From Sipunculus nudus (Eukaryota; Annelida; Sipuncula; Golfingiida; Sipunculidae): a stretch of 64,000 bases of DNA. Location: NCBI GenBank assembly GCA_026874595.1, contig CM049306.1, positions 57,914,019 through 57,978,018 of the forward strand. Direction: 5' to 3'. A model generated the notes under the pieces. The model saw nothing but the letters and a program-made list of their open reading frames with translations. It did not search any database and was not told the DNA's origin. How positions within the stretch are numbered: the stretch's first letter is position 1; each line of letters opens with the position of its first letter. Below, piece by piece: positions 19,651-55,641 of the stretch. Position numbers and translations under genes: made by a program.

Positions 19651-20377
19651 TCAGTACTCCATACATTGATCGTTAAGTACATTATCCTCATTGGTTTGGT
19701 GATCATCTCCAGCTTCACGAGCCAGCTCTAGTCGGATATTATTCGTCTTGTCGCTGTATTTTTCGTACGATCTCTTCCGGTTGGCTTTCTGTGAATGACT
19801 ACATTGTACGTTGATCTCGCCGTGGCCGTACTTCATGGAGGCGATGTTGGAGGGCCGCTCGTAGCTTGAATCAGCGTCGGTTTTCTGCCATAAGTTGGCG
19901 TTGGTGATAATTCCATTGAATCCCTTATCGATCTTGCTCTCGTGGCCTCGAGAGCTGTAAGAATCTGATCCTGTTTGTTGGCTTCTGGGCCTCAGTGTTC
20001 CGTTTCGTGCAAGATCAGCCCAGGCGTTCCTGGCTTCTTTGTAAGTTATACAACGGAACACACAAATGAAGAAACCCTGGAATGTGTTCGCAAAACAGAA
20101 AATATATTCGAACGCTAACTTGGCGTCTTTGATGGCGAACAGTCCAAACACCCAGGTGATGCCAAGAAGAACCATAATTGTAAATGTTCCACGAATTTGC
20201 CCCGTGGTCACGTGTGTCTCTTTTTCTCCGAAACCCGCCATTTTGTCTTTCGGGCGGGGCTGTAAGATCACTCTGGCTACCAGTATAAATATGACAAAAT
20301 TCGCTATCAGAATAATCAACACAGGGAAGAGTATTCCAAAGTAATAAGCCCATGGATTCTGTGGCGAGAAACGGCAC
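19651..20377 (-). CDS. Receptor exon 14: ECL2, TM5-TM7 and cytoplasmic tail
   Basis: Residues 2136-2377. The acceptor is ATTTCAG/GTG, phase 2 in. It encodes the conserved ECL2 cysteine (ECRFSPQNPW), TM5 (ILFPVLIILIANFVIFILVA), TM6 (GTFTIMVLLGITWVFGLFAI) and TM7 (FEYIFCFANTFQGFFICVF), the hallmark adhesion-GPCR signatures. The tail (~130-140 residues) is polar and basic/acidic, ends QCMEY and has no evident PDZ-binding motif. Confidence 0.95.
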
Positions 20378-23300
20378 CTGAAATATTGAAAAACTGATAA
20401 CTAAACACCTCTGTTTTACAACATATATATTTTTTTTGCATTTACGTTGTTGTACCTGGATTAATGAAAAAGGTTTAAATCAAAGACGAAAAAGTATTAA
20501 TTTGTCAGAAAAAAAGTAAAAAAAAAAAAAGAAAATTTAAAGCAATAAAAACTACGCAAGTTTTTGGTTTTACTATGCTTCAATACATGCTTTAGGTATG
20601 ATACTTGCAGACATGTAGCAAGCTACAGCGCTGTTTCCAGTATTACTCATTTCCAGTCATCTTGTAGAAGGGTGATTAGATAGAAATAAAACCTCTGCTC
20701 AACCTTATGCCACTATTATGAATGAATGGCAAAGCAAGTCTTTCATGTCTCAGTCATGTTAGGAAATATGTGGAAACAACTTAAAATCAGTTAAAACCAG
20801 CATCTGGCACATGAAAGTTTGATTAAAGAAATATTATTCATAGTTAACATAAGAAAATAGTCTGAAAACACTACACCAAGTACAAAGTATAATAAAAGTA
20901 TAAGGAATTGCATAAGTAAGAGAGTTGCAGCACCGGAGAACGTGGAGCACTTAAAATTTTGGAGCTTATCGGTGCTTATTCTATGGCAATTTTTTAATCT
21001 ATGAATGAATGACTCAGGTGTAGAGAGAGTAGTGAATATTTGACTTACTCAGCAGAGACGCCTGTGTAATGGTCGACATCAACTCCAAGCATGATGACCA
21101 CCACGACTAATGGTAGCCCTGTAATATAAAAGATCACATGTTTAAAAAACAGTAGAACCTTCTATAAGACCACCTGTCTTATATAAAACCAGCTATGTTA
21201 AGACCATCCTTGAGTGAACCGAAAGCATTCACAATGGTTACAACGTAACCGTTTAATAAGACCATCTGTGAATTATAAGATCACTTTTGTTCAGTCCCAC
21301 GGATGGTCTTATTACACAGGTTTCACTTTAATTACCAAAAAGCTCAATGTATAGTCACTAAATAATACAAATACATCGCACCAATTTAAACATCTTTTCT
21401 TTCGATGTTAGTTTATACGTGACCCCTCCTCCTCTCTGTTAATCTTTAAAGCTTCAATTATTTATTTTTTTTAAAACAATTGTGAAATGTTTCTTATTTA
21501 TTTATTTGGCTATTGCATTTTGTACATATCCCAAAAATTTGCTAAATAATCAAATTTGACAGATGTACCGGGCGGCTTTCACCTGGGATATCTTGTTCGG
21601 TCAATGGCTGTTTAACCAGCTTTCATTTCCGTGGATCGTGATTACAAAAGTTAATAATTTACATGAGGAATTGTATCATTAGATGGTATGAATACTGGCC
21701 CAGTGTGGAAATGCTTCAAGCTACACATTTAGAATACAAACTTTTTGAAATATCAATATTCCATTAAAAGTAAAACGACGGCTTTGTCATTACCACGACA
21801 TAGTTACTTTATGGCGTTAAATCAGTTTAATGACGCAGTGACAGTCTGTGATGAAGATCATTCAGTTGGTTCCTGGCCAGTTATTGGTTATGATTCGAGG
21901 AGGTGGGGAATAATTATAAAGTGCTCATTGAAAACCCTTGCTGTGGCTCTCCGTCAGCACTCACACACAAAAAGAAATAAGTGATCGCGATATGTCCCAT
22001 AGTGCTTGCAGCATTAGTTAATTTGTTAATCGAGTTTTGGGGATGCAATAGTAAATATGGAAAAATAATGTCTTCGTTGTGTATTTTACAGAAATTCAGG
22101 TAATAAATGCTGAAATATGTTATCATGTCTGTTTTCATGCAGACATTACTCGACGCAGTGCTCTAATACCAATGCATAAACTAAAGCCATACAGGTGTGA
22201 TTATTACAGATGACTCGGATATTTCAGTCCAGACTATTAAAGGAACATAAGCTATTAAACTTTTAACTGTCGTCACATTTCCCTAAATCATATTATCCTT
22301 TTAAAAATGGATTTTGACTGTTTCACAATTCCAGAAACATCAAACTTGTGGTAATCCAATGTGTTACCAATTTTCTCTGTATCATCGATGATAAGCAGTC
22401 CTCATTCTGAATTAAAGGTCTCCAGCATTTCATGAAAACAAAATTTTCTAATCAATTCCCAAATAATTATACCAATCTGTTGCCAGTTTGACAATGTATT
22501 TTCTCTCTGCATAAAAGCCATCATGCCAAAAGGGAGATAAAAAGAATATCCACTTTAAAAACAATGAGGCTGGTCATCCAGTAAAAGTACGCTTACTCCG
22601 TGTGGACATCAGCCAAACACATTTTAAGGTAGCGCAATGTTTTAAATTTATAATAGACCATAAATTTTACACGATTTGAACCATTTACAGTGCTTTTTTT
22701 AATGGTATACATATTTTTGAACTATTTATTTTTTTATGATATTTAAATATTTGAAAAAATTAAATTTTTAAAAGGTACGCTACTTCAGGTACCTAGTAAA
22801 AGCAAGCCACTTTTCATTGGACTAGTATTTAACTATATGAGAATATCTCCATAGCCATTTTTCGTTTTTCTTCTGGCATGTATCTATCTTGTTAAAAAAT
22901 GAAATCTTAATTTTTTATTTTCTCAAAATTAAAAATTTCAGTTGTAAGATGGATATCTTTTTTGAGAAAGTGCCATGTAGTTTAAAATTGGTCCACTAAA
23001 ATCGGCTTACAGGTACTGGGTTCTTAAATTAACGTATTGAATTTCTTCATTTTCCACTTGTGTAAGTAGACTGTTTTAGAATGCAATATTGATAGCAACA
23101 ATGATATTGTTTAAAATGATAATTTTGGAGAAAACGCTATACTTCATGTATATCTGACATATCTGATCAGTGAATGGGCCTAATTAAAGAAGGAAGTGAG
23201 CTTTGATAAATTCAAAGAAATTACCCCATGCAATGATGCATCTCTTGAGGAGGAAGTGGGATTCATACGAGATAAAGACGGTCACCAGCATCTGGTAGAG

Positions 23301-26300
23301 ATTGATGGCTTCCAGCAGCATCCAGAGGAAGGACGCCAACAGGAAGTAGTGAAGTAGCGCAGCCACGGCCACACACCCGCCATGAGGGAACAGCCCCGGG
23401 ACTGTGGCCAGGATGTACATCACGTTCAAACACAGCAGAGCGAAACACAGGTTGATCAGTACCCGGCCGCTGCGGTCCCCACGCAGTTTCCTGTAGAAAG
23501 CAGATTCGAAAGAGTACGACTCTGTTGGTTGAGTTTGTGTGCGGGAAAAATATGCCACCCACAATGCACCGGGGCTTCAAAATACACCAGCGGCGTAGGT
23601 ATACACGTAGAGAAAATGGTAATGTAGTCCGTTCAAAAATGTTCGATTAGCATTGTGTCCAGGCAAATTACATAAACATGGGTGTTTTTGTGATAAGGCC
23701 TTTACGGAATAACTAACATTTTGAACATATACGTATGTGAAATGTAAACAGAATTTCTTCCTTTGAAATGTAACAGATTTTGATTTTAAAGTTGATATTA
23801 GAGACAAGGAATCCCGGCCGTTCTACATTGGCAAACAGAAAGAGGTTCGTTTTTGGTAGAAACGACTTCTGGTTGACCAAATAGTACATACGTTGCAAAT
23901 TAGGAAATCAATAGTGATCAAGGGTAACTCATACGTTTCAAATTCCTAACAAAACCAAAGTTCATTTATAATTAATAATTCATTATTGTGTTACATCAAA
24001 TGATTTTCATTTTTACAGACACCACAAGTAGTACTTCATTCAAGGCATGAATTATGTAGTAAAACAGAATTCTACAAGGTAAAAAAAAACATCAGTGTGT
24101 GTCACAGAATATTTAAGATTTAAAATTAAGAAACATTCAATTAATCTAGTACATGTCTATCAGTGAAGCTAACAATTTAATAAGGAAAATCATTGTTAAA
24201 ATACTTCCAAACTAGCCCATAGTCTTTCACTCATGCCATATCAGACGGTCGGTTATTTTGTCATTTCTAAGAGGGTTATTACTATAGCAAGTGACGTACC
24301 TGAACAGTGCGTATGTCAGCAGTGTGATGATTAGTCCAAGGATTGACAATGCACAGCCGACATAGGAAATGACAGACAGGGCAAGCTGGTGACTCTCTGG
24401 GATCTTAGAGCCGGGGTCCGGGTCCTGTAAACGTAAAAACCTTGACTATTTCGTGTGCTCAATTTTCAATTTTAAATATACTTAGTATTCATCCGCGCTG
24501 CGCTGTCTCTCTTCAGCCTAATAATAAAATTAAGCAGCGCCCCGTCTGGAAATCTGGAAAATAGAAAAATAAGCGCATATATACCGAAAAAAAAACTGGA
24601 TTTCATATAAAGATGCTTTTAAAACGACTCCAGATTCTTATTATTCACCAAAGTTTCTACACCATGTGGGTGGGGGGGGGGTGGGGGGTTGGGGTTCAAC
24701 AATGAATTTATATGGTTTGTTTTTAATATAGACGGTCAGTTGTTTAAAAATACGACAGCCAGAACTTACCAGGAGAACAGCAAAGCTTGTCAGATGGTTT
24801 GAAAAACAAGTGGTCCTGTTGCTGTCGCTGTCGTTCAGGGTAACACCACTGCTTGACCATTGTCTTTCTGCAAAGAAACATAGCGTTAAAAAAAGCGCGT
24901 TCTTACCTTTCTCTATAGCTGATTCTCACTACACGTACTTGAGTATGTTTCTCCCTACACAGTATACATTCAAAGGAAAATCTGGCGACGTATAGCTACG
25001 CCACATATAAATAAGGCGAAGGGTTCAAGACAAAACGAAAGTATGGTTCCGTTTTACGTTATCAGAGTGTTCAGCTGTGTTTTAAATTTCAAGGCACGTT
25101 TAAAAATGGAAATGGTTTGAAAATAGCTTTGTATTTTGCATAAATACATTTTCAAGGGGGGGGGGGGTTATTGCTTAGAAATGAGAAAGGGACAATTGAC
25201 AGAAGCCCCCCCCCCCCCTTTCTCCCCTGAGACTATGACTTTATTTTTCCTGCTGATAGTCGGCCCCCGTTATATAATGACAAAGCTCTCTGCCTTAATA
25301 ACCTATTTTTTTATATACTTTTATTGAGCCACATATAATTGAATATGTATTTTCTTTATACAAATATATTTTTAACAGTACATATCACTGATATTTTACA
25401 TTCATTTGATTTTGACAATTAAAGAACATGCGATATGCTAAACATTTTGTTGATTATTACACATTTACTTTAAATTGAATGACGGAAATTATTTTGAAAT
25501 GTTCAAATTATGAGTTTCACTCCATAAAATGTGAGGGGATCAAAAGGCACTTTGTCCACACTCCTAAAAAATGAGGGAACATGTCCGGTTGCCCCCCCCC
25601 CCCCCCCCCCCCCAGTTTCAATCTAATTTATTATGCTGATAATAACACCTGCTACGTATCAAGAATACACAAATTAAGAGCCCATCAACCTATTTCCTCT
25701 GCTTTATTGTTTACTTTACTGCTGAAACCTCAAGGCTTAAAATACAGTTTTACATCACAAATTAAAGAATAAACAAAGCAGTGATAACAATGATGAGTTT
25801 AACTTATAGTGGATAAAAGTAAGTAATGCCCTCACCGCTTGATTTCCAGAAGACACACCGCGTCCGCAGCGCCCCCTGGAAAGATATAACTGTATTATTG
25901 TCCAGTGTTACACACCTTATAAAATTAAGCAGTCCTTCAATAAACAGGTGGCCCATGGGTCATGACGCTCAGCTGAATTTGACAAGTATAACGGTGATGA
26001 ATATATTAATTATTGATGTAATAATCTGGTTAAAAATAATATTTGTTAAGGAACCTTGATCAGTGGGTAGGATGACTTCCAGGTAACAGGCGAAGGTAAC
26101 AGCAGAAAGATTTTACAAAAAATCCCCAGATGCTTAGTGAGAAGTTTCTACGTTAAACTGCTTATACTTATAGCTAGGGTACTCAAATCATGTTGTTTCA
26201 CACAGCTCAATTACTATAGGTCACAGTGACCTTATTTTGGATATCAAAGGAGATATTATAATGATCTACCTTGATAATAAAAGAGGCATTACTAGAGCAA

Positions 26301-32300: not shown

Positions 32301-33087
32301 ACTGCGTGAGTTATGTTGTGAACAAACACACACAAACACAAGGACGGATATGAACGCATATAACCTTGTGGCGCAACAATATGGAAACTGCGTGAAGATA
32401 AGCCTTTAAAGCGATCCTACATGTAGGAATACATGTTAATGGTGATCTTTAAGGTTAAGCTGCCTAGGCTGGCCCTCGGCTTCTGATTTGCATCTAACTT
32501 CTATGACATGGCCTTTGATGGCCTGGTGTGGTATCCTGCATCAAATTCCCTATCCACCTAAACGCTTTGAACACTTTTCAAAGAGGGAAAAAAACGTAGG
32601 AGAAAAAGCAATTTCCTACAAATAAGCCTTGAAGAGATCTAAATTGGAATGGCGCGACGGTCTGATTGCTACTTTTCTAAATTCCTCATGTCACAGTCGT
32701 GACTACCACAGCTTTGCATCATATTGTTATCAAGGAGACGAAAAATCAATATCAAATTATTTCTTTCTTTCATTTATATAGGATCACAGTATCATAGAAG
32801 CAAACAAAAGTTTCCGTTCCCGGCCGCGTAAATACGTTAACTTTTCTTTTTTAAACACAAAAACCTACAAGGTTATCAGTCATTGAAAACCTCCTATTAA
32901 CCAATCAACGAGAAGCCAACACTGACTTTGGTTAAAAAAGGCAAGTTGTTCTTCTCTGACTGTACTTCTGGCTGAGGCAGATTGATTTGCAATGCAATGT
33001 TTGTTTAATAAATAGATGTCGTTGGAGGTAGCGTTTCTTAATCATCTCATCAACCTGCTTGTTAACCAGCGTGAAATACTTTAATGA

Positions 33088-33131
<44 letters not shown>

Positions 33132-36100
33132 TCTTGATAAATAATTATTATTGTAAGTATTCACGCTTACAAGCAGGTTGGTGAGATGACATGATATTGT
33201 AATATATATATATATATACATATACATGTAAATATATTACATTATTATATGTATAATTTAAATATCTTTTTATTTATATTATACACTGTAGGTATAATCT
33301 ATATATTATATATTATATTATATGTATGTAAAGTATTAATATACGACATGCCTGTTACAAAGGTGTGTACGTAATCTGTTTAGGTGTGTAGAGTTTTTTG
33401 TCAAACTAACATGCTTGCACTACACACTCTGAGGTAAAGTAGTAGGACAAAAGTAGAAAACAATTAACAAAGTAGGAGCACAGTTGGAAACTAAAAGGAC
33501 AAAGTAAAACAAAAGCAGGAAACTAGAAGGAAAAAAGTAGGAGCACAGTAGGAAACTAGGACAAATTAAGAGCACAGTAGGATACTAGAAGGACAAAGTA
33601 GGAGCACAGTAGGAAACTAGAAGAACAAATTAGGAGCACAGTAGGAAACTAGAAGAACAAAGTAGAACAAAGTAGGAAACTAGAAGGACAGTGTAGGAGC
33701 ACTGTAGGAAAATAAATGGCCAAAGGAAAAAAGTAGGACACTAGAACGACAAAGTAAGAGCACAGTAGGAAACTAGAAGGACAATGTAGGAGCACTGTAG
33801 GAAAATAAATGGACAAAGAAAAAAAAGTAGTACACTAGATGGACAAAGAAGGAGCACAGAAGGAAACTTAAAGGACAAGATGAGAAAACAGCAGGAAACT
33901 AAAAGGACAAAGTTGGAGCACAGGAGAGAACTAAAGGACAAAGTAAAATAAAAGCAAGAAACTAGAAGGATAAAATTAGGAACAGAGTGGGAAACTAACA
34001 GGACAAGGTAAGAGAACAGTAGGAAACTAGAAGGACAAAGTAGGAGCACAGTAGGAAACAGTAGAACAAAGAAGTGAAAATAGGAAACTAGAAGGACAAT
34101 GTAGGAGCACTGTAGGAAAATAAATGGACAAAGAAAAAAAAGTAGTACACTAGATGGACAAAGAAGGAGCACAGAAGGAAACTTAAAGGACAAGATGAGA
34201 AAACAGCAGGAAACTAAAAGGACAAAGTTGGAGCACAGAAGAGAACTAAAGGACAAAGTAAAATAAAAGCAAAAAACTAGAAGGATAAAATTAGGAGCAG
34301 AGTGGGAAACTAACAGGACAAGGTAAGAGAACAGTAGGAAACTAGAAGGACAAAGAAGGAGCACAGTAGGATACTTAAATGACAAAGTAAAACAAAAAAA
34401 AGGAAACTAGAAGGATAAAATTAGGAGCAGAGTGGGAAACTAACAGGACAAGGTAAGAGAACAGTAGGAAACTAGAAGGACAAAGAAGGAGCACAGTAGG
34501 ATACTTAAATGACAAAGTAAAACAAAAGTAGGAAACTAGAAGGACAAAGAAGGAGCACAGTAGGAAACTAGAAAGACAAAGTAAAACAAAAGCAGGAAAC
34601 TAGAAGGACAAAGAAGGAGCACAGTAGGATACTTATATGACAAAGTAAAACAAAAGTAGGAAACTAGAAGGACAAAGAAGGAGCACAGTAGGAAACTAGA
34701 AAGACAAAGTAAAACAAAAGCAGGAAACTAGAAGGACAAAGAAGGAGCACAGTAGGAAACTAGAAAGACAAAGTAGATAAAATAAAAGCTAGAAGGACAA
34801 AGTAAGACAAAAGTAGGAAACAAGAAGGACAAAGTAGGTGCACAGTAGGAAACTAGAAGGAAAAAGGACAAAAGCAGAAAATAGAAGGACAAAGTAGGAC
34901 AACAGTAGGAAAATAAAAGGACAAAGTAAAACAAAAGCAGTAAACTCGAAGGACAAAGTAGGAGCACAGTAGGATAAAAGGAGGACAAAGTAGGAAAACA
35001 GCAGGAAAGTAGAAGAACAGAGTACACAGTGATCGCTGGGGGGGGGGGGGAAGTGATCCCTGGGATTTTACGATATAGCTTATTCCAGCAGTGGGCGGAC
35101 ATCGCACAATTTCACCTACTTTAATTGCATATGATAAATGGCCGCTTTTGTAAGATAACCTGACGAGCAATGATAGATTTCCCCCAACTCGGCATATTTT
35201 AAAAGTTTAAATATGCACTAAAACGCATACCTGTTCATTGTGAGTCCCCGAGAATTTCGCTGACCTCTTCGTTTGTTTGTCCACGTCCACCGCTTGAACT
35301 TGAATGTTGCCGGTTCTCATTGTCAGATTGGAACCTCTCAATGGAACCCTGCTCAGGTAGCGGTCAATAGCTGTCGTCAGTCTGAAGAATTATTACGAAA
35401 TGATATATAAGTCAGCTTTAAAAGATATAATTCAATAATAACAAATGTTTAAAAAAATAACAAAAAACTTAATATTTTTTTGTAAATCTAAAGAGCCAAA
35501 ATTATTTTATACGAAGAAGCCACAGCTTAATAATAAATAACAATTAATAAATTATGAAAAATCATTCGGATAAAAAACATTAATTCAAGTAAGAGAAACG
35601 TTGTTTTATTAATTTTTATTTTTATTCGATTTTTATATTTTTAATCTGATTAACAAAAGTAAAATAAAGAAAAAAAATCTTTCTATCAATTTCTTTTTTT
35701 TATGTTAGGCGAATGTAAAGATAAGTTCACATCAGTTATATAAATATTTAAAAGCATTCCAGTGTCTTTTAATATTTTTTACTTTCATTACTATTACTAT
35801 TGTTATTATTATTTCACTGGGTGCAGTCATGTCACACAAACCATCATTTACGTTTTTACATGTTTACGGAAAACAATTAGGTTACGTCATGAAATAAGTA
35901 CAGTAACCAGGTTGTAGTAATTAAACGCGACCTTTACAAAACACCATCATCACTCTAACAATAGATTTTTCCTGCGTATCATTTTCAGATATAACAGACT
36001 GCTATTGTATTTACTGACCTTTCCCCGACAGTTTTGTCTTGTTCAGAACTCTGGATTACAGAGGTGTTGACATCCATTAAATTACTGATGATGTTTATCA

Positions 36101-39100: not shown

Positions 39101-39736
39101 ATAATTCCTGTACAATGATATTGTGTTTATTGTCAATTGAAATAAATGTAATACTAAGATAAAATATTAGGACCTAAAAACAAGGCATAATTTTAAAAGC
39201 ATTTTTATGAAGGTATTCATGCAGAAGCGGATCCCGGGGGGGGGGGGTCCAGGGGGTCCGAACCCCCCCCCCTTTCCATACCTGGGGACCTGTTTTTAGG
39301 GTTTTCATTAGTCCTCCTGAGTTGGAGGTATTCATGCAGAAGCGGATCCCGGGGGGGGGGGGAGGGGGGTCCAGGGGGTCCGAACCCCCCCCCCCTTTCC
39401 ATACCTGGGGACCTTTTTTTAGGGTTTTCATTAGTCCTCCTGAGTTGGACCCCCCTTTTCCCAAATCCTGGATCCGCCCCTGTCATGTAGTTTATTATAC
39501 CGTTTTACCGTTAAATGCACATGTAACATGGGGGTCATAAAGGGGCGTCAATATAGGGGGGATGGGTTTTTAGCAAGGGGGGGGATGGTCAATGTAATCA
39601 TCCCCCCACTTTCAGAGAATAATATTATAAAATTGCAAATAAAATATATTAATAAATAGAATTAAAGACTTTGGTTCAATTTACTAAAAAAATAACTTCT
39701 TTTCTAAAACTTTATAACTATTTGAAATTTGATTTC

Positions 39737-39807
<71 letters not shown>

Positions 39808-42800
39808 GTTGAATGTGTCACTCAGAGACGCTTTAAAAGGTATGTGTGTTTGTGTGTGTGTGTGAAAATGTGTGTACATATATACAATGTCACCCCCCCC
39901 CCCCACCCTGGAAGAAAAATTGACGCCACTGGGATCATATACTTTATAAAAATCAGGCAGTGCATTTTTTTTTATAAATCATACTGATTAGCGTTTAATT
40001 GTAATGAGTCCTGGAGTACGGGTCGGGTAACAGCTGTCGAGTACAAGAGTCTAACATGTGCCACATAACTTGCCTCTTTACAGTTGTCATACACGGGCTG
40101 TTGCCACTTGACTTTTCCGTCAGTTAATTCACACCTGCGGGAAGCGTACGACGGTTTTTCAGGCTCCACGGGGCCGTGAGGACATTCAGTTTCAGCTACC
40201 TGGCCATGAAATGTCTTCTTCCACTTTGCGGTGCCCCAGGACCCTCCAGTCTCCGTGCTGGGGCAGCTGCCTATCATGTGAAACAAAATACGAAGATTAT
40301 ATAACAGTGCTGTCAATGCGATTTTGAAAAGACTTCGGGGGATGCCGGAAATGCTTTCACATGTCAAGCTCATCACTACCTTCTAGAAGTTTTGGTGCTT
40401 TAGTGGTAACGTCAGCTATATCCCTTGGTAAGGTAGTGACAGGGTTTGTATAGAATTACATTACTATGAGCAAGAGTACTGACAACCATTGCTTAGCTAT
40501 GAGCGTCAGTGTACGATTACCTTATCTTGACATATCCACAGTTATTTATAGTTTTTATATATTTCGCTCACATGATAAATGTATCTCTATTACTCGTTGG
40601 ACAGACATTTTGTATGTATATCATAATAATAGTGATCGACTCTTTAAAGGTATTTAGACGTGCCAATGTAAAGATGTCAGTCTGTGACTGAAAAAAATTA
40701 AATGCGTGACTTTTTATCAGTCTAAGGTCACATTGGTGAAGACTGAAAGGCATGCAGCCATAATAAAATTCTGAGAGAGAGGGGGGGGGGGATGTTTTTT
40801 AAGAATAAATCACTTACCCTTGGTTCCACAGTCGACACCAGAATAACCTGGGGGGCATTCGCATTTGAAGTTGTTGATATAATTCACACAAGTTCCACCA
40901 TTCTGACAAGGCAGGGACGTACATTTGTTGATCTCCTCCTCACAATGTTGTCCTGATGAAAATCAGTTTTAAATGGGAATAAAAATAGTTCGTGTAAAAT
41001 GTGTCTAATTTAAAAGTTAACGTATTTCTAGATTCATTTAAAATTTAATTGAACTGATTTTTATCCAATGCTCTTAACTGAGTGGTTCTGATTTCTACTT
41101 TTATTAGCACGATTATGCCGATATCAGTTTCTTAGCAATACATGAATCAAACATCGATTTCTCATGTCAATCTTTTTACATATCTGATACCCCGGAATCT
41201 CGAAGAAATTAATTAAAATGTCACCCGATAATCATACATGCATTGTGAATTCTCGTACTCATCAAAAGTGCCTCCGTGTGAGTACTGTGACATCTTGCGG
41301 CTACATATGCATTTTTGACACTGCACTACATGTAAAAGATATAAATGATATATTAAACATGAACAAGTGAAGGGGAGAACGTACCATCCGTGAAAATTAA
41401 AGGTGAAATAAGTAATCTGCTATCTGTCAGCCTCCCGGGGCAGATTTCTATGTAGCTTACAATCTAGACAAGGGTCTTGAAGTGCGGTCTCGATTCCTGA
41501 AGCGGTCTTGAGTTAGACCACTCTCAAGAGTCCAGACCGTTTCCATATTTTGGTCTTCACTTAAGGCTGCCTTGACCTTTACAGGTGGTGACAAGAAATT
41601 AATAGGGAGCAAAATTGAACCTGTCATTATGTTTTAATTAAAACGTACACCAAAACTATAAGTATTATCTTTGTTTGCAACAAACATTACCGGTGAATAT
41701 AGAGTGTTTCAATCAGGTGTTATTAAAAGTAAACAAATGCCAGTGTTTACCTCATGATCACATTTGACACCGATTGTCCCCGGAAAATATGGATAGTTGG
41801 ATATTTTATGGCCTGTCAATTTCAACGCGTGCGCAGATTCGAATACAGCTAGCTTACAGCAGGCATACTTAGGTAAGGTTAATTATTACTGGAAAATACA
41901 GTATTCTCGTGATTGTCCAGGTATTGTAAAATATTTTTTGATGATCTGGCACTGTATCTCAAGACATCATCAAGACTGCCCGGGACCTGTATTGGGTTAC
42001 GAAAGTATAGCAATCGAATGTTTAACAAGACCGTTCTAAAAACAGTCTTGGAAACTGGAACCCGACTTGACCTCAAGACTGTCTTGAGATTTTTAGCTGA
42101 GCTGACTATAAGTCATCTGAGCTATAGTCGTGGTCCTTTGTCCGTCGTCCGTCCGTTAACAGGGTACATTTTGAAACCTTTGAACCTATGAATCCAAAAT
42201 GATGCATACAGTTAGATGTCCCTAAAATCTCCTACCATACAAAAAACTGGGTCACTAGGACTTCGTTCCTTCGAAATATTAAGGAAAAGCTCCGTTTTCC
42301 ATAAAAACTGTTACACTTCAAGGCTGCCTAATATCGAAACCACTGGTCTGTTTTTGATTATATTTGGTATTCATATTCTTCCATACATTTTCTATTAATG
42401 TACCAAAAAATGGGTCAGTATAATGAGTATTGTTTTGAAGTTAGGGGTCCAAATATAATGCAATTTTTAAAAATCAGGAAATATATTTACTCACTTAACA
42501 TGAGAAATGCTGAAGATGGAGACTTTTTTTCAAGGATAAATCAAGATTCAATTGTTAATCCAAAATTTTGAATTTTGCCAATGTTTTCAGTTATTAGCAT
42601 AAATAAAAAAATTAATACCTTAAATTTTGTCCAACTTTGGCTACGGCACGTTTTTCCCCTGTAGGCACTGTTGATTTAATTTTCACCGCATATATACATA
42701 AGGATTTAATCTTTTAAAATATGAAATTTCAAAGGAATTGATTGAAAAGAGAAGCTTTTATTCAAGTTTTCATTCACCATGTCAGGTGTTGTTTACATCA

Positions 42801-45800
42801 GGCCCACTTTGTAGGACAACCTTCACTTATATTATGTAACCCTCTCCAGGCAGCTTGCCTTGGCTCAGCTTGGCCACTACTAGCAGGCTTCCCCTCTGCT
42901 CTGCACTCCGCCCCCTACCCCAGCTGGTGCATAAAGTAGATGAATGTTATAATTTTTTGTATTTGATTCATTCTTATTCTAGGCTGTGCTACATTTTAGA
43001 TTTTGTATTGTACCACCAGGGTTATAATGATTAAAGTGCACATTTAATTGTGTCCACAATATGGTGTATTGCTATATGAAAGTGTGGATGTTCATCAGAT
43101 AGTAATTCTTTACTTCAGAAGAGTAAAAACCTCACCAGGTGAAGTTTAATTGATTATTAATTCCAGTATAAAAATTATAGCTGAGATAGTAATTAGCACA
43201 ATGATGATGTTTGTCCCTCATTCAACTAACAGTGTGTTTACTTGATTTGAAAAGATGGTTTTATTTTATCAGATTTACTGAATCTTTTATTTCGGTGAAT
43301 TAAATTAAGCATGTATTGAAAGCTCCAATGTACAAAACTTTTCAATAGTGATTCAAAGAATAATTTTGAAGATGCCATGTTGTGGCATTATTTTCTGTTA
43401 AATTCACTTTAAGCATTTGTGATTAAAAAATAAATAAAATATATGTGTATGCATAATATGACCCTACATGAGCTACACTCTGGATAAATAAATAATGACT
43501 GCAACTTAGAATTCTGATATTTTAACTTAAAATTTCAGAATTTTTCTATTACAATTTTTCAAAAACTTGTAAATAAAAAAAATTGAATCTGATAAAAACT
43601 GTTAACTGAAAAAGTGGATATGCTAAAAAAATAGGCTTAAATATAAACTGATGGATATGCTAAAAAATAGACTTAAATACAAACTTAAATGCATTATTCC
43701 CTTGAAAGTGAAATAAAGGTATTAGACCATTCTGTCCACTTGCCTGTCCATCTGTAAATTTTTCATATGCATCACAGTATCTCAAAACGTTTACTGGTTT
43801 TCTTAATGACAGTCTTGTCAGAGTATTAGTTTTGTAATCATATATTTAAAACTTTACTATAACCAAGTAGGAGGGCCCCTTTCCTCTTAGCTTCTCATAT
43901 GCTTGTATATATGAAAAACATTACAATAAAATATTTTGCATATTTTGCATTTGGAAAAATTTCAAACTTCAGCAAAGCGCCGTGACCCATGGGTCCCTTG
44001 TTATTGAAACCCTACAACAATGCCAGTTTATTCATAGTTTCTATACACGTTACGCTCTTGTTCATCGGGCCTGATCTATCTTGTAGCTTTTCTCTTGGGA
44101 ACAAACGTCCACAAACACGCTATTTAAGGTACTATGGCTAATTCTTCTACTTTGCCTGCTGCTCAAATCAGTACCAAGTCACCTCTTTGGGAGTGTGCTC
44201 AAACTCTTGGTAAAACTTGGGCCAGGAGTAAGCGCGGACTGTTCAAATGGGACTAAAACATTACTCTTACGGTCACAAGTCTTGTATCCTGACCATCCAT
44301 TGCACCATCATGCTCCATATTGTAAAATATGTATAGTAAAATGTTGCACTACGACCCTTTTGATTCACAACTAAATTTACTCAGATAAAGAAATAAAAAA
44401 GAAAAACTGGGACACGTGAATCGGAAGTGTGTAGCAATGACCTTTCAATATAAACCTACAATTTTTACTGTTAAAACGAATCATGTGATTGAAATACGAA
44501 ATAAATGGAATGAATCATTTTTATGTCCATTAACAATTTATCTTATTGCACATATCAGGCAGATTCTTGCCTGCCATCATGTAGACATTATGATGATTCC
44601 TCTGTCATGGTATTGATTTTTTTTTTAATTTCAGTACATAACGTTGCAAAAATTATGCATTTCTCTTTAACTGTATTACACTGTTGGTAAATGAGAAATC
44701 AACAGGTAATAGATGTTAAACGGGTGACGGTCTGAAATATTAAAATACATATTAATAATTACTGTCATAGTACAAGTGCCAGGTCAGCAGATATTTCCTT
44801 TTTTCGTGTAGCAAGGTTCTAAAAGAGTCTGCCTTTGCGGATGAGGAGGGGGAAGGGGGGGGGGGGGGGGGGAGGGTTAATTCTGCATAATTATTGACTC
44901 ATATTGTCGCATGCCATATACATTTACCATACAAGTATGTTTTCTTCAAAGGAATTTTACAAGTTAATCTTCATACTGGAATGTATCAAAATAAACAAAT
45001 CAAGACGTTCAAGATGCGGTAAAAAAATGCATATTTTACCTTGACTCCTAGAAACAACATCAAGCAACAAGTATATAACCATGCAGGAACACTGGAGGAA
45101 CAATCATGCATTGAAGGAATATATGTGACGGTGGCAGCGTGTAAAGAGGATTTAGAAACTGCTACCCCACCTGCATGAGAGCTGAAGTATGATTGTTTTG
45201 TACCAACTATAGAAAAAAAACCGATGAACACTGGCTAGTGTAAAAAATACTTTTCTGATGAGTGATTAAATTCCATGTCAAAATGTTTGTGTAAACAATG
45301 TGAAATTACTAACTGAAGGAGTATGGTTTGTAATATCCACCTGAAATTTTGAAAGCATGAAGAAAAAAGTATCTTTTTATGAATGCAAAAATATAAGCCC
45401 TTTTGAGATAGCGTTATCTCTGTTAATTCCGGTATACTTTGTATTCTTTGACGCTCAACTGTCAACCAGGTGGGTATGCAGAAATAAACAGCGTTTGATT
45501 TTGTGATCCATGTGCCGTAGAAGTTTCCATGCGCCCATGGGCCAGGTGCTAGATTGACCGAACGTAATGGTTTTTTTTTTTATTTATTTCTTTTGTCAGT
45601 AAGATAATGTACCTGTATAACCGGCGAGGCAAATACACGTGTACTTTGCAGTCAGGTCAATGCAGTATGCGTTGTTCTTGCATGGAGAGGAAGCACATTC
45701 CTTAATATTGGTCTGGCATCTGTTTCCTGTAAACCCCGCGGGACAGCTGCACGAAAAGCTGTTTATTTGGTCGGTGCACTGCCCTCCGTTAAAACAAGGA

Positions 45801-48800: not shown

Positions 48801-51800
48801 CGGCTCGATGTGTTGACGCACTTTCCTTCGTTGAAGCAAACTTCAAGAACACAGGGGTTAAAGAGCTGACAGTTTTTACCATAATACCCACTGTTGCACT
48901 CACAAATGTATTCTGTGTTTGAAATATTTCTACAAACCCCTTCGTGTTCGCATGGTTGGCGAACACACGGGTTAAAACGACCGCAGTTATTGTCATAATA
49001 TCCCTCAGAACACTGACATTTGTAGACGCTGCCAGATATTTTGACACAGGGTGCCCCGTTCTGACAGGGGTCAGATATGCAAGGGTTATAATGTTCACAA
49101 TGGCGCCCCGAGTACCCATGCTCACACTGGCATTCGTAACTGTCCGGGGTTAATCCAGTTTTAGAACATCTGCCGCCATTCATACAAGTTACGAGGGCGC
49201 ATGGATCAAAGTTTTGACAGATGGTACCATAGTACCCTTTTGGACACTCACACAAGAATATGGTACTTGATATATTACGACATGTGGCGCCATTCCTACA
49301 TGGTGCACGCATGCACGGGTCAAAGAACTGGCAAGCGGACCCGTAGTAGCCGTGTTCACAGCTACATTTGTAACTCTCGCTGGAGATGTTAATGCAGACC
49401 CCATGGACACACGGACGGGTGACGCAAGGATTGTAGAGTTCACAATGTTTGCCAAAATGGCCTCGGGCGCATATACATTTATACACCTCATCAGTTTTGT
49501 TTTGGCATATGCCTTCGTTTAAGCAAGGTTTTATGGAACAAGGATTGTAGAGTTCGCAATTAGATCCATAATAACCCTTTTGACATTGACATCTATACCG
49601 TTTATCCTCGTCATGTATGCACTGTCCCTCATTCAAACACGGTGATTTTACACACGGGTTGTATCGCGTGCAGTTTGTTTCGTACCAGCCTTGGCGACAG
49701 GCGCACTCGTACACGTTATCACCACGAGGGTAGCATCCGCCGCCATTTTGACATGGCGAGTACAACAGACATGCGTCCCGGATTTCGCAGTTGTCTCCAC
49801 TGTGACCTGGAAAGAAGAAAACACCATCCTCCTACACCACGAACATGCATCTATCTGAACTATAGATTATAATGATATTACAGGCTACTACTCTACCATA
49901 GATCTTCACATGCCATTGTCCCAGGCCAAGTCGGGCATTGATAGAGGGAACAGATCAAAGTATATATTTACAGTAAAGCACATCAACAGACTCAAGGTTT
50001 ACATCTAAATAGTCAGAACTGTAACATATAAGGCACATTGAGTCAAATATTACTTGCTGATATATCTACACTTACACAAAAGAAACAGGGAAGTTTAAAG
50101 AGAAACCGAATACACATAAGCAGGAATAATTAAATATACCACAGAATTCCATATACATGATCAGCATAGATGTAGCTACCGCTGAACCTATGGCGCTTTT
50201 GTTTACGGATGTTTATGGTACGAAGCTCCACGGGAGTCACACGTGATAAGTCACGTGGTCTTACCCTTTTCAGACAAGTTTTACCATATGACAGAAAACA
50301 AGAAGTTCCCGATGTCTTGCTATTTTACAAGTACATACCTCCCGTAGGAAACATCCAAGGTAATCAACGATGTCAATTTGTTTTAGGAGCTTAACTTCGT
50401 AGTTTTCCTTTGTCAATAGTTCATACGTATCCCCCCTCCGCCTTTTGTATACTTGATATTAATTTTATTCATCAATAAGTATAGCCTTTTATATCCACGG
50501 AAAGTATATATCAGAGATGATGTAATTACACATATATTAATCAGAAGTATATTATTTTGTAAAGCTTATTATGATTGTAAAGAATTGTAATCTTCAGTCA
50601 TGTTTTTATTGCATAACTGAAAGTATATATCGTAGAGCGCCGTTTTTTTTCCAAAAGCGTCGGGGAACAAGCTTTTCTTTCGGAAAAACGAATTTTTGGG
50701 AAATCGGTCAGGGTTCAAGTTCCAAGTTCGTACGACAGTTAATGATTCATTTATCGCCATTTTACTTAGGGAACACCGTGTTTCTTTTCGACCTACGTAA
50801 TTGACATAAACATATTCAATTTATTGCAGAGCTTGATTGGTAAAGATAAGTCTGACCTGGGGCGCCATAACGGCACACGCAACACGAATGAAAGGCAAGA
50901 CTTGAACGATCGTAGAGCCTTCAAATTATTTTAATTTTCAGATCTTACGTATGTTTAAACTTATTGAATACCCTAGCCCACGTCGCATATTAAACTTCCC
51001 TACTTCGTTTTATAAGAATGTTCTCTTCTCTCTATTTTTATTAACATCTAGATAAAGGCAGGCTTGTCATCACGGTTGAGCCGCTCAAGGATTGTCAGAT
51101 AGTCATCAAAGCATAACGACGTCCGTTTTCTCTTCTTCGACTCCATATCTCACAAGTTACAGCAAGACGATTGTGTTTGAGAAGTGTTATTTTTGACAAT
51201 GAAATGATGAATAAGCTTAATAACAGCGAGTTTAAGTAGATGACACAATTCCTCTTGGGAATGAACTGCTCTTTTTTATAGCCAGGCCGCATGCTTTGGC
51301 CTCGCACCTAAGCCTGTTCGAGCACAAGCGATGTATGAATGATACCTCCCCAATGTCCATGCGAGTAAAATGCTCATTTGTATGGCCTGGCATACTAGCC
51401 CAAGCGACGTGCTTCATAACTGATTATTTAAATATATTTGAAGGTGGGTACCTTCAAAGCTTGAGCGAGGATAAGTTATTTCTAATCTTATTTGGTAAAG
51501 CTTTTCCTCTGATAGAGGACACTGAGCACCTTTTATTCATGTATAAACGATCACTGTTTCTAAAAGATCTATTCCCAGTAATATGTGAACTATGGCCTAC
51601 TGAACTTAAGGTTATGATCTCTAGTTAAGAACATCCTTCAAGACATTCACTTTCCTGCAAACAGGATGGTAAATGATGTGCTTTAATGAAATGACATTAT
51701 TTTCATGTACTTCTTCTCACCAACTTTGTTTCACCATTGCAATCCATTGTGTTTGTATTTTCGGTGTATTACCTTTGTATCTCTTCGATCTAAGAGGAAT

Positions 51801-52896
51801 AAAATGATTACTGATAAACTGCTCAGCCGCTTTTTGGGTGTATGCCTAGCGTTGCGGCACCAACTGTAGTTTTCACACCTTTGCCCGGCGATAATATCGG
51901 CCCAGAACTAAATAATTAAGGATCACAACTGTGTTTAAACACCTGAGTGCAGGCCCTTGTGAGTCGTAATTACAAAACATCATTTGAGGAATTTACATGG
52001 TCACAAATGTAAGCCTAAAAGTGGTTAATAAAGCTACCCTCTTAAGAAGATAGAGAGTGGATCCACTGTTACAGTATTGCAAGGTTACAAGTTTCAAGAA
52101 GTTGTGGAAATAAAGACCGTTTTTAACCTTTCACGAACTCTAATGTTATTTTGTGGATTTTGGCGGGAGCTATAATTTGAAATATAGAATGTTTAAAAGG
52201 GAAGAAAACGATTAATTTGAAATAAAGTATACCGCCTACCTCTCGTGCAGTCACAAGTGAATGACTTGGTGGATACATTTATACATGCCCCGCCATTCTG
52301 ACAAGGATCGCTGGCGCACGGGTTTAGGTATTCACACAGATCCCCGTAATATCCAGGGGCACAACTACAGGTGAAGTTCACGTTGGATTCGTTCTTACAG
52401 GTTCCACCGTTCTCACATGGTTTGGTCGAGCAAGGGTTGTACGATTCGCAGTTTTGTCCGTAGAAACCGCTGGGGCAGTCACATCGGTAACTGTTATGGG
52501 AAACATGCTTACACGATGCGCCATTTTGGCAAATGGCGACCGCCGAACACACATTGAAAAACTGACAGGCGTTGCCGTAGTAGCCTGTACGACAGTCACA
52601 TTTGTAAGTATTATGGGATGTATTACGACACATTCCTTCGTTCTGACAAGGGCTTAATGAACAGCGATTGAAGTTGGTACAGTTTCTCCCCCAGAATCCT
52701 TGGGCACACTTGCATTCGTACGTGCCGCTAGAGATGTGATGACATTCGCCGAAGTTCTCGCAGGGATCCATGGAACAAGGGTTGAGGAATTGGCAGTGGT
52801 CTCCATAGTAACCATTTTCACAATCACAGTGGTATCCCGGAAAGTAATTCTGCGACATGCATCCCCCATTTTTACATGGCTTATCAAGACCGCATA
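19651..52896 (-). CDS. Giant adhesion GPCR: 43 EGF repeats, HRM, GAIN/GPS, 7TM (5'-partial, 14 exons)
   Basis: Exons in transcript order: 52896-52240, 49806-45613, 40952-40818, 40270-40074, 38412-38272, 36113-36019, 35381-35231, 30537-30298, 25875-25836, 24867-24770, 24424-24300, 23490-23225, 21118-21049, 20377-19651. The joined frame is uninterrupted: 2377 residues from the first complete codon to a TGA. Residues ~1-710 are 18 EGFs of a non-calcium type; ~711-1660 are 25 EGFs, mostly with the calcium-binding (D/N)(I/V)(D/N)EC start; ~1662-1727 HRM; ~1728-1982 GAIN with GPS; then seven helices and a cytoplasmic tail. It is a class B2 (adhesion) receptor expected at the plasma membrane and predicted to self-cleave and signal through a tethered agonist. 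The signal peptide is not seen, so exons are missing upstream. The ligand is unknown. CELSR and ADGRE also combine EGF with GAIN/7TM, but CELSR has cadherins and ADGRE few EGFs and no HRM. Confidence 0.92.
21049..21118 (-). CDS. Receptor exon 13: TM4
   Basis: 70 nt. The acceptor is ATTACAG/GGC and the donor GA/GTAAGTC, phase 1 in and 2 out. It encodes LPLVVVVIMLGV (TM4) and the start of extracellular loop 2. Confidence 0.92.
21150..21327. repeat. CAGTAGAACCT-type MITE in receptor intron
   Basis: It starts CAGTAGAACCTTCTATAAGA and ends with the inverted counterpart GTCTTATTACACAGGTTTCACT. Length and ends match the MITE family seen at 55,440 and 55,819, though the interior differs. It begins 32 bp from exon 13. 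Confidence 0.6.
21328..23224. other. Receptor intron between exons 12 and 13, remainder
   Basis: AT-rich, with no coding signature recognised. The short open frames here have no domain. Confidence 0.4.
23225..23490 (-). CDS. Receptor exon 12: TM2, TM3, start of TM4
   Basis: 266 nt. The acceptor is TCTACAG/GAA and the donor TGGG/GTAATT, phase 2 in and 1 out. It encodes intracellular loop 1 (RKLRGDRSGR), TM2 (VLINLCFALLCLNVMYILA), the conserved extracellular cysteine (GGCVAVAALLHY) expected to bond with ECL2, and TM3 with the family signature FLLASFLWMLLEAINLYQML. Confidence 0.95.
24300..24424 (-). CDS. Receptor exon 11: TM1
   Basis: 125 nt. The acceptor is TTTACAG/GAC and the donor CAG/GTACGT, phase 0 in and 2 out. 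A short linker (DPDPGSKIPE) leads into TM1 (LALSVISYVGCALSILGLII). Confidence 0.94.
24770..24867 (-). CDS. Receptor exon 10: second half of GPS and tethered agonist
   Basis: 98 nt. The acceptor is CTTTGCAG/AAA and the donor CTG/GTAAGT, phase 1 in and 0 out. It encodes W-S-S-S-G-V, then T-T-C-F-S-N-H-L-T and SFAVLL. The expected cleavage triad H-L/T is intact. The usual W...GC cysteine is valine and the second cysteine of the usual C-x-C is serine. Confidence 0.93.
24788..24796 (-). other. GPS autoproteolysis site (His-Leu/Thr codons)
   Basis: Minus-strand codons CAT CTG ACA (residues 1974-1976). By family knowledge, cleavage falls between Leu and Thr and exposes the tethered-agonist sequence TSFAVLL. 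The catalytic base and nucleophile are both present. Confidence 0.85.
25592..25613. repeat. Homopolymer C run (22 nt)
   Basis: An uninterrupted C run inside the intron between exons 9 and 10, one of many long G/C runs in the receptor introns. Confidence 0.95.
25836..25875 (-). CDS. Receptor exon 9: 40-nt microexon with the GPS CVFW motif
   Basis: The acceptor is TATCTTTCCAG/GGG and the donor AGCG/GTGAGG, phase 0 in and 1 out. It encodes GALRTRCVFWKSS, the canonical first half of the GPS. Joined to its neighbours it gives ...NPK-GALRTRCVFWKSS-ERQW..., the expected spacing. Confidence 0.9.
25949..27320. repeat. Interspersed repeat family F, long copy (about 1.37 kb)
   Basis: It starts TGGCCCATGGGTCATGACGC and ends after a GGACGGACGGACAGACGGAC tail and ATAGCTCAGATGACTTTCAG. 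The body contains several degenerate ~150-200 bp modules with GACCT(T/A)ATTT and CTTCCCTGGATGTT phrases. It is non-coding. Confidence 0.65.
29727..30098. repeat. Interspersed repeat family F, short internally deleted copy
   Basis: It has the same start (GGGTCATGACGCTCACCTGA), the same early phrase (TATTAATTATTAATG) and the same GACGGACAAAGGGTTGAT and GGCTCAGGTGACT end as the 25,949 copy, but only about 370 bp. Confidence 0.65.
30298..30537 (-). CDS. Receptor exon 8: GAIN subdomain B
   Basis: 240 nt, phase 0 in and out. The acceptor is GATGACAG/GTC and the donor AAAG/GTGAGC. It encodes VLPSIRIPVEAL, a strand-rich middle (VRVWFVLYSNSKLF), and DANIFNLSDPVAYTLPNP, the typical GAIN segment just before the GPS. 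Confidence 0.92.
33037..33196. repeat. Inverted repeat flanking a CA/TA microsatellite
   Basis: The left arm (CTCATCAACCTGCTTGTTA, then GCGTGAAATACTTTA) is an imperfect reverse complement of the right arm (GTAAGTATTCACGC, then ACAAGCAGGTTGGTGAGATG). The arms are about 45 bp and enclose (CA)n(TA)n. Confidence 0.75.
33438..35016. repeat. 1.6-kb intronic minisatellite with higher-order repeats
   Basis: The basic unit is about 30 bp (AGGAAACTAGAAGGACAAAG, then TAGGAGCACAGT). Larger blocks are themselves duplicated: the block at about 33,769 recurs at about 34,085 (316-bp step), and a ~122-bp block repeats around 34,363-34,500. On the gene strand each unit reads as a pyrimidine tract ending in AG. 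The long open frames read through it are low-complexity artefacts. Confidence 0.93.
35231..35381 (-). CDS. Receptor exon 7: GAIN
   Basis: 151 nt. The acceptor is TTCTTCAG/ACT and the donor CAG/GTATGC, phase 2 in and 0 out. It encodes LTTAIDRYLSRVPLRGSNL, then a strand (NIQVQAVDVDK) ending THNEQ. Confidence 0.92.
36019..36113 (-). CDS. Receptor exon 6: GAIN helices
   Basis: 95 nt. The acceptor is ATTTCAG/CTT and the donor AAAG/GTCAGT, phase 0 in and 2 out. It encodes LAVSMINIISNLMDVNTSVI, then QSSEQDKTVGE, typical of the helical GAIN subdomain A. Confidence 0.92.
36983..37146 (-). pseudogene. Possible GAIN-exon-like fragment in receptor intron 5
   Basis: An open minus-strand stretch encodes SEDRIIRPYEDANIFDISDN. 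It resembles residues of exon 8 (AMDRMV......DANIFNLSDP): 7 of 9 positions match in the DANIF..SD core. It sits upstream of its putative parent and lacks the rest of the exon. It could be a decayed duplicated exon or a chance match. The neighbouring open frame 36,539-36,808 has no recognisable domain. Confidence 0.3.
38272..38412 (-). CDS. Receptor exon 5: start of GAIN
   Basis: 141 nt, phase 0 in and out. The acceptor is ATTTCAG/ATA and the donor AAG/GTAAGG. It encodes a helical, charged segment (TAVEATKEAEAVKNM to MASFTLKDPK) with a sequon (NSS). Confidence 0.9.
39208..39446. repeat. ~120-bp direct tandem duplication with G/C runs
   Basis: The phrases GGTATTCATGCAGAAGCGGA, GGGGGTCC and TACCTGGGGACC, up to CATTAGTCCTCCTGAGTTGG, occur twice in succession. 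Both copies hold long G and C homopolymers. Glycine/proline-rich open frames here are artefacts. Confidence 0.9.
39739..39804. repeat. (AT)n microsatellite
   Basis: An uninterrupted TA repeat of about 66 bp in receptor intron 4, followed by a short GT-rich stretch (39,846-39,864). Confidence 0.95.
40074..40270 (-). CDS. Receptor exon 4: HRM (hormone-receptor) domain
   Basis: 197 nt, phase 1 in and 0 out. The acceptor is CATGATAG/GCA and the proposed donor AAAGAG/GCAAGT. It encodes SCPSTETGGSWGTAKWKK, then ECPHGP, RRCEL and QQPVYDNCKE: the HRM pattern of a C-P-x(5-7)-G-x-W start, a CP(H)G, and a closing W..P....C. The GC donor is required to keep phase with exon 5, because nearby GT donors give the wrong phase. 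Confidence 0.88.
40818..40952 (-). CDS. Receptor exon 3: last EGF repeat (43)
   Basis: 135 nt, symmetric phase 1-1. The acceptor is TTCATCAG/GAC and the donor AAGG/GTAAGT. It encodes QHCEEE (end of EGF 42) and EGF 43 from INKCTSLPCQNGGTC to SGVDCGTK. The six cysteines are present; the usual Asp/Glu before C1 is Asn-Lys, so calcium binding is less certain. Confidence 0.94.
41974..42080. repeat. Short repeat shared with 61,405-61,520
   Basis: Both places contain a GGACCTGT phrase, TATAGCAATCGAATGTTTA (here) or CATAGCAATCGAATGTTTA (there), and TCAAGACTG. An otherwise unclassified dispersed sequence. Confidence 0.5.
42092..44000. repeat. Interspersed repeat family F, ~1.9-kb copy, inverted relative to 25,949
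   Basis: It begins TTTTAGCTGAGCTGAC, then a TTTGTCCGTCGTCCGTCCGT segment (the reverse complement of the family tail). It ends GCGCCGTGACCCATGGGTCC near 43,997. The right half matches window positions 1-275. It is non-coding. Confidence 0.65.
44001..45612. other. Remainder of receptor intron 2
   Basis: AT-rich, with a run of 18 G at 44,855-44,872. No exon-like feature was recognised. Confidence 0.4.
45613..49806 (-). CDS. Receptor exon 2: single 4.2-kb exon with EGF repeats ~6 (end) to 42
   Basis: 4194 nt, phase 1-1. The acceptor is TCTTTCCAG/GTC and the donor ACAG/GTACAT. EGFs 7-17 are of the type NPC...PC.N.G.C.N.S...Y.C.C..GYYG..C. EGF 18 has an insert of about 27 residues between C3 and C4. 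EGFs 19-42 are calcium-binding type, most opening INEC, IDEC or VDEC and ending GYTG..CE. Many carry the O-fucose consensus C-x4-(S/T)-C (CQNGGTC, CRHGATC) and the O-glucose consensus C-x-S-x-P-C (CSSSPC, CLSNPC). EGF 34 is short (CQHGNC), and EGF 36 opens EDKC instead of DEC. Not a Notch gene: it continues in frame to HRM/GAIN/7TM exons. Confidence 0.95.
49807..52239. other. Receptor intron 1 of the visible gene
   Basis: 2.4 kb, with no further EGF exon found on the minus strand. It contains the possible retroelement fragment at 51,296-51,628 and otherwise nothing recognised. Confidence 0.45.
51296..51628 (+). mobile_element. Possible decayed retrotransposon fragment
   Basis: An open plus-strand stretch contains CFITDYLNIFEGGYLQSL and PLIEDTEHLLFMYKRSLFLK. 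The latter resembles the I-E-D-(E/T)-x-H-x-(L/I)-F segment near the C terminus of LINE-type polyproteins. The cysteines expected there are missing and no reverse-transcriptase core was seen. A weak call. Confidence 0.25.
52240..52896 (-). CDS. Receptor exon 1 of those visible: EGF repeats 1-6
   Basis: 657 nt, phase 1-1. The acceptor is TTTTTTCAG/TAT and the donor AGAG/GTAGGC. It encodes CGLDKPCKNGGC..., then five more EGFs opening NPC, NRC or NVC, the last finishing in the next exon. It enters in phase 1, so at least one coding exon with a signal peptide must lie upstream. The first 41 nt of the exon belong to a tandem repeat unit (see 52,856-53,300). Confidence 0.93.
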
Positions 52897-55411: not shown

Positions 55412-55439
55412 GAGGTATCTGAATATATATATATATGTT

Positions 55440-55616: not shown

Positions 55617-55641
55617 TTAATATATATATATAGAAAGAAAT

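Follow-up and report, generated by a model that had tools for sequence, protein, structure and literature searches.

Does the minus-strand run of exons that carries 43 EGF repeats and ends in a seven-pass (7TM) domain encode a single receptor or two neighboring genes, and what kind of receptor would it be? The locus lies in a 64,000-nt stretch of Sipunculus nudus DNA (GCA_026874595.1, CM049306.1, positions 57,914,019–57,978,018), hereafter the window, whose numbering we carry on past 64,000 for features beyond its edge.

A 17-exon gene model

Rebuilding the exons on the minus strand by reading frame and splice signals yields a chain of 17 exons over ≈46 kb, which is quite probably one gene for a large adhesion GPCR with the order signal peptide, two cadherin repeats, FN3, 43 EGF repeats, HRM, GAIN/GPS, 7TM domain, and tail. 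The joined exon model has a coding chain of 8.1 kb and a predicted protein of 2,700 aa; its sole stop is the last codon, and phase is kept at all 16 junctions from the signal peptide exon to that stop. GT-AG borders flank 15 of the 16 introns. The exception, after the HRM exon, is a GC-AG intron with its donor at 40,073 (AG/GCAAGT, the slash marking the exon border), the only non-GT donor among the 16.

The initial annotation had proposed that the 14 exons from 52,896 to 19,651 join in one open frame linking 43 EGF repeats to HRM, GAIN/GPS, and 7TM, and all 14 could be rebuilt from the sequence. Both of the junctions that it singled out are exact: splicing at 45,613/40,952 completes EGF 42 (...CLAGYTG/QHCEEE...), and 40,074/38,412 is the GC-AG junction, in phase 0. 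An open reading frame at 40,455–40,360 was considered as a linker exon between EGF 43 and HRM and was rejected, since any entry into its frame through a phase-1 acceptor runs into a stop.

Two other features of the window were observed. The intron between two of the GAIN exons contains a 32-bp minisatellite of ≈49 copies (33,467–35,024) with a strong AT skew. On the plus strand, positions 2,062–9,340 hold the open frames of an ankyrin-rich-looking neighbor gene, the last of which (8,711–9,340) matches Pfam Ank_2 (48.2 bits) and SOCS_box (36.6 bits); given ankyrin repeats and a SOCS box, we take this neighbor to be an ASB-type gene.

The N terminus lies beyond the window

Exon 4 (52,896–52,240; phase 1/1), the first within the window, opens in phase 1 and has neither a start codon nor a signal peptide; the gene therefore starts upstream of 52,896. 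In the adjoining 30 kb beyond the window edge, where frames of at least 50 aa were listed, we found three further minus-strand exons, linked with one another and with exon 4 by phase-1 junctions. Exon 1 (66,104–66,044) provides a start codon and signal peptide (METLLINICLMVITLPITVK), with a second in-frame ATG nine codons upstream of that start. Exon 2 (65,591–64,968) encodes two cadherin repeats (Pfam Cadherin, 64.9 bits, two stretches), and exon 3 (64,509–64,228) encodes FN3 (Pfam fn3, 37.8 bits); on the joined N terminus, the two models score 63.9 and 34.3 bits, respectively. The intron before exon 4 occupies 52,897–64,000 up to the window edge. The receptor had initially been contrasted with those that add cadherin domains, a contrast that falls away, as the receptor itself has two cadherin repeats and FN3 outside the window.

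In the PDB, the cadherin exon matches CELSR1 best, at 109 bits for a long chain and 69 for a shorter one, followed by protocadherin gamma B4 at 53 bits (best 60 of 82 rows). No laminin-G match was found by Pfam in the scanned exons of the gene. The six introns lying between the signal peptide and HRM exons share phase 1, which makes the front a frame-neutral cassette, and the adhesive front was probably joined to the receptor core by exon shuffling.

Two classes of repeats in the EGF array

By cysteine-pattern count, the array comprises 43 EGF repeats. Exon 4 encodes EGF 1–5 and most of EGF 6 (Pfam EGF, 122.8 bits, five stretches); exon 5 (49,806–45,613; phase 1/1), 4,194 nt long, encodes the end of EGF 6, EGF 7–41, and most of EGF 42 (Pfam EGF, 685.9 bits, 30 stretches). 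The end of EGF 42 and EGF 43 are assigned by cysteine pattern and splice phase to exon 6 (40,952–40,818; phase 1/1), and the Pfam count of 30 + 5 stretches refers to the two large exons, the exon with EGF 43 lying outside that scan. Splicing restores both EGF 6 and EGF 42 exactly, each across one junction. EGF 1 with the N terminus scores 19.0 bits in Pfam, below the cut-off of 21.5, and EGF 18 carries a long insert.

The repeats fall into two blocks, EGF 1–18 and the Notch-like EGF 19–43. Repeats of the first block have leaders such as [FY]NP and carry 13 N-glycosylation sequons in total, as against one in the second. Scored with the usual consensus patterns, a calcium-binding leader is present in none of the 18 outer repeats versus 18 of the 25 inner ones, the O-glucose site in 3 of 18 versus 22 of 25, and the O-fucose site in 4 of 18 versus 14 of 25.

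Among the matches listed, the best EGF arrays elsewhere in the genome are found on C16, C13, and C5, at ≈48–57% identity. The C13 and C16 arrays resemble EGF 19–25 about as closely as the remaining repeats of the gene do, and the arrays at C13:54.17–54.32 Mb and C16:1.97 Mb are a possible source of the receptor's array. Apart from the receptor's own, no GPS match falls within 1 Mb of the listed EGF matches (best candidates scored). The C13:54.17–54.32 Mb and C16:1.97 Mb arrays are themselves very long and encoded in single frames of 1,357–1,787 aa.

HRM, GAIN, and an altered GPS

HRM is encoded by exon 7 (40,270–40,074), entered in phase 1 and left in phase 0 through the GC-AG intron. The exon is borderline in Pfam (26.0 and 23.1 bits in two scans; cut-off, 26.2) and scores 26.8 bits in a six-frame genome search. 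GAIN is spread over exons 8 (38,412–38,272; phase 0/0), 9 (36,113–36,019; phase 0/2), 10 (35,381–35,231; phase 2/0), and 11 (30,537–30,298; phase 0/0), and its Pfam model scores 24.3 bits, below the cut-off of 26.5. HRM and GAIN taken together align colinearly with ADGRG6 (E = 1e-7).

The first part of the GPS region, with CVFW, is assigned to exon 12 (25,875–25,836; phase 0/1), only 40 bp long; exon 13 (24,867–24,770; phase 1/0) encodes GPS with H-L/T, where the slash marks the cleavage position, and the putative tethered agonist TSFAVLL. Joining exon 12 raises the Pfam GPS score from 38.3 bits for the GPS exon alone to 49.7 bits on the joined core (cut-off, 22.5). Exon 12 is also supported by the distance from the NLS/NLT motif to CVFW, which is 21 residues here and in all five adhesion GPCR paralogs on C16 (counted by eye; CVYW in one). 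The alternative of extending exon 11 through its donor (VSVNLNLHG...) was dropped, since the join to 25,875 gives the 21-residue spacing of the paralogs.

The resulting GPS sequence reads CVFW...SSGV...TTCFS-NHL/TSFAVLL. Read against the conserved residues given in PMC13062082, it keeps the Phe and Gly and has Val in place of the Cys that follows the Gly. Thus H-L-T is retained, as are the conserved Gly and the Phe in CVFW, and two of the four GPS cysteines are lost: Gly-Cys has become Gly-Val, and the last cysteine, just before NHL, has become Ser (CxC to CxS). In an unaltered GPS, these two cysteines pair with each other. The initial prediction that the receptor self-cleaves is borne out as far as H-L-T, the Phe, and the Gly are concerned and is weakened by the replacement of the two cysteines; because of that loss, autoproteolysis at H-L/T appears likely but not certain. 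A GPS without this cysteine bond would allow a direct test of the effect of the bond on cleavage.

The receptor core resembles the ADGRG type

The remaining exons encode TM1 (exon 14, 24,424–24,300; phase 0/2), TM2–TM4 (exon 15, 23,490–23,225; phase 2/1; 7tm_2), TM4–TM5 (exon 16, 21,118–21,049; phase 1/2), and TM5–TM7 with the intracellular tail and stop codon (exon 17, 20,377–19,651; 7tm_2). On the joined core, Pfam 7tm_2 scores 160.4 bits (cut-off, 20.6), and the protein combines this secretin-type 7TM domain with an adjoining GAIN/GPS, the two features of an adhesion GPCR (class B2).

When the whole core is compared with the PDB, ADGRG2 (221 bits) and ADGRG6 (212 bits) rank above ADGRL3 (167 bits) and ADGRD1 (164 bits). 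The segment from GPS through 7TM ranks ADGRG2 (196.4 bits), G6 (175), D1 (162), L3 (140), F1 (109), E5 (98.8), and L4 (90.5) in that order among the best 60 of 97 rows; those 60 rows include no CELSR 7TM structure, and this ranking is thus made without a CELSR comparison. HRM plus GAIN finds ADGRG6 at E = 1e-7, and the other three rows are at 0.22 or weaker. By pairwise score, the HRM-GAIN-7TM core therefore resembles the ADGRG type most closely. As a control, the roughly joined core of one C16 paralog also places G6 (142 bits) and G2 (137.5 bits) on top, which indicates that the G-type leaning is common to the C16 group and not peculiar to the receptor described here. The core is not that of an ADGRE receptor: E5 scores 98.8 bits against 196.4 for G2, and an HRM exon is present, whereas ADGRE receptors are not known to have HRM.

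The order cadherin, EGF, HRM, GAIN, 7TM and the CELSR1 top match of the cadherin exon (best 60 of 82 rows) would also suit a divergent or degenerate CELSR/flamingo-type planar-polarity receptor. We regard this as highly improbable. A separate CELSR-type locus exists at C1:95.0 Mb, with matches to cadherin-9 (89.5 bits), HRM, GPS, and 7TM, and our 7TM query has no match there at E ≤ 0.001 (best candidates scored). The gene described here has two cadherin repeats and no laminin-G match in the scanned exons, and its HRM plus GAIN query found ADGRG6 and missed the CELSR1 chain at E ≤ 1, although that chain reaches into GPS.

Genome searches placed GPS at 22 places and HRM at 16 (E ≤ 0.1), and among these matches HRM, GPS, and 7TM occur together in three regions only: the 17-exon gene, C1:95.0 Mb, and C4:64.4 Mb. 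In each of the five C16 adhesion GPCR genes, a single open frame covers GAIN, GPS, and TM1, and the TM2–4 stretch is 39–47% identical to that of the 17-exon gene; the ≈20 kb examined upstream of every one (for one gene, part of it) showed no EGF pattern. The suggestion of a lineage-specific expansion is not supported by these counts, the genome having one candidate paralog of the same order (described below) and five C16 paralogs without the EGF pattern over ≈20 kb upstream. As a separate observation, clusters of single-frame 7tm_2 receptors with near-equal scores and frame lengths lie at C17:20.25–20.45 Mb and C2:77–80 Mb.

One gene or two

That the locus is a single gene for an adhesion GPCR of uncommon architecture, as first annotated, is supported by the open chain, the phases, and the domains. 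The point at which it might be divided is the intron between EGF 43 and HRM, which is only 547 bp long and cleanly in phase 1. Two neighbors could in principle meet here, one encoding a cadherin-FN3-EGF protein, either secreted or membrane-bound, and the other an HRM-GAIN-7TM receptor with its start at the HRM exon. Such a start is available, as an in-frame ATG (MSLTCES...) followed by a moderately hydrophobic stretch lies in this intron upstream of the HRM exon, and the five C16 paralogs set a precedent with a GAIN-TM1 exon and no EGF array detected in the ≈20 kb read upstream. The hydrophobic core of the alternative start is weaker, however (1.88 vs 2.66 over 11 aa), and the short phase-1 intron, the two junctions that complete EGF repeats, and the lack of any stop in the joined exons before the final codon all count against a division. 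Together with the second locus described below, they lead us to consider two genes decidedly unlikely.

Somewhat less unlikely, though still improbable, is that one locus makes two products, the full receptor and a secreted cadherin-EGF decoy generated by read-through after EGF 43 or by other ends. Read-through past 40,818 would reach a stop after two more codons, and variants in EGF number are described for ADGRE2 and ADGRE5 in PMC8584163. Against this, EGF 43 is followed by a strong donor (GTAAGT), and most of the EGF repeats lie within one 4.2-kb exon, which limits splicing that would alter their number.

Further support for the single-gene model comes from another place in the genome, C1:69.34–69.40 Mb on the plus strand. 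In this second locus, a two-cadherin exon is followed by EGF matches and then by a TM2–4 exon, with order and shared strand as in the 17-exon gene. Used as a genome query, its cadherin exon finds, apart from itself, the 17-exon gene at 2.8e-9 and a single C10 frame at 9.3e-4, with no further match at E ≤ 0.001; its TM2–4 exon finds itself, the 17-exon gene (1.4e-5), and one C16 paralog (3.0e-4), and nothing else. The phases agree as well, the cadherin exon being 1/1 and the TM exon readable as 2/1. In Pfam, the TM exon matches 7tm_2 at 35.4 bits, and the cadherin exon is weak at 20.2 bits (cut-off, 28.8). HRM, GPS, and FN3 were not detected at this locus in the genome searches, the locus itself having been read only in part. 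Because order and strand are kept and both of its end exons find the 17-exon gene first, the second locus argues against two adjacent genes, and we consider it a candidate diverged paralog.

How often such an arrangement would arise by chance was gauged by rotation. Within 100 kb, a same-strand cadherin-EGF-7TM order occurs once besides the 17-exon gene, and none of 5,000 rotations had one; the test is post hoc, as the second locus had been noticed beforehand. It used 32 cadherin, 44 EGF, and 99 7TM places among the matches listed, with nearby rows merged, the rows of the 17-exon gene excluded, and chromosome lengths approximate. In the reverse direction, and to the disadvantage of this reading, the cadherin exon of the 17-exon gene scores marginally nearer to three C10 protocadherin-like frames (7.7e-11, 4.0e-10, and 6.8e-9) than to the second locus (1.2e-8). 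By direct comparison, two of nine fetched cadherin-locus frames, a partial set, are likewise marginally nearer than the second locus. Numerous cadherin matches on C10 each sit in one open frame of ≈900–980 aa and have the look of a large protocadherin expansion.

A possible mechanism and its implications

The most likely way for a single receptor of this build to work would be as follows. The cadherin/FN3 tip would bind a partner on an adjacent cell or in the matrix. The 18 outer EGF repeats would form a looser arm, and the 25 membrane-proximal, Notch-like and mostly calcium-binding repeats a stiff rod; at ≈3 nm per calcium-binding EGF, EGF 19–43 would measure ≈70 nm. Tension or unbinding at GAIN would then uncover or displace the GPS tethered agonist (TSFAVLL...), with G-protein signaling by the 7TM domain as the outcome. 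The force- or adhesion-sensing role proposed at the outset is plausible as a reading of the architecture.

We tentatively suggest, as a possibility that falls somewhat short of even, a broader interpretation. The gene would belong to an undescribed adhesion GPCR subfamily that has two or more diverged members here and in which an ADGRG-type core independently gained a CELSR-like cadherin-EGF front and EGF 19–43 serve as a Notch-style, calcium-stiffened, O-glycosylated tension rod to the tethered agonist. If true, this would be a second, separately evolved cadherin-EGF seven-pass receptor, with a force gating that could be set by calcium and Notch glycosyltransferases. Such a receptor would show that the long cadherin-EGF seven-pass form arose on two separate occasions, on two different cores, and would be a natural test case for the transfer of force by very long adhesive rods to a tethered agonist.

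Comparison with known systems

The receptor is closest to ADGRG6 (GPR126) and ADGRG2 in its 7TM domain, where these are the best matches, and to ADGRG6 also in the colinear HRM plus GAIN. The front of ADGRG6 consists of CUB and pentraxin domains. Here the G-type core, as judged by pairwise score, comes without the CUB/pentraxin front and bears signal peptide-cadherin-FN3-EGF instead. ADGRE/CD97 and ADGRL4 share EGF repeats, GAIN, and 7TM with it, but their 7TM scores are lower than that of G2, and they have few EGF repeats and no known cadherin.

The CELSR1–3/flamingo receptors (ADGRC) have the same five domain types, and the cadherin exon is nearest CELSR1 in the PDB. CELSR receptors have about nine cadherins, few EGF repeats, and laminin-G domains, in contrast to the two cadherins, 43 EGF repeats, and absence of laminin-G in the scanned exons here, on a core nearest ADGRG by score. 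The presence of cadherin repeats, EGF, HRM, GAIN, and 7TM in one receptor is described for flamingo in PMC13197933. A comparably long ectodomain belongs to ADGRG4, whose extracellular part exceeds 2,700 residues and which has been proposed as a mechanical sensor; according to the same source (PMC10687090), it carries a pentraxin-like domain and a mucin-like stalk, unlike the cadherin-FN3-EGF front described here.

Modular fronts are also found in invertebrate and early-branching adhesion GPCRs. Invertebrate latrophilin-like receptors have EGF, Ig, LamG, or FN3 fronts (PMC6422961), a figure legend on sponge receptors names EGF, fn3, and HRM (PMC4302439), and amphioxus receptors have novel domains (PMC2246102); in the accessible parts of these descriptions, the combination cadherin-FN3-EGF(43)-HRM does not appear. 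Our limited search of the open-license PMC literature likewise found no description of the order signal peptide-cadherin-FN3-EGF(43)-HRM-GAIN-7TM. The membrane-proximal repeats have their nearest parallel in Notch and fibropellin arrays, with which EGF 19–43 share Notch-like leaders and O-glucose and O-fucose consensus sites. Unlike arrays of the Notch/fibropellin type, however, that of the 17-exon gene is attached to a GPCR.
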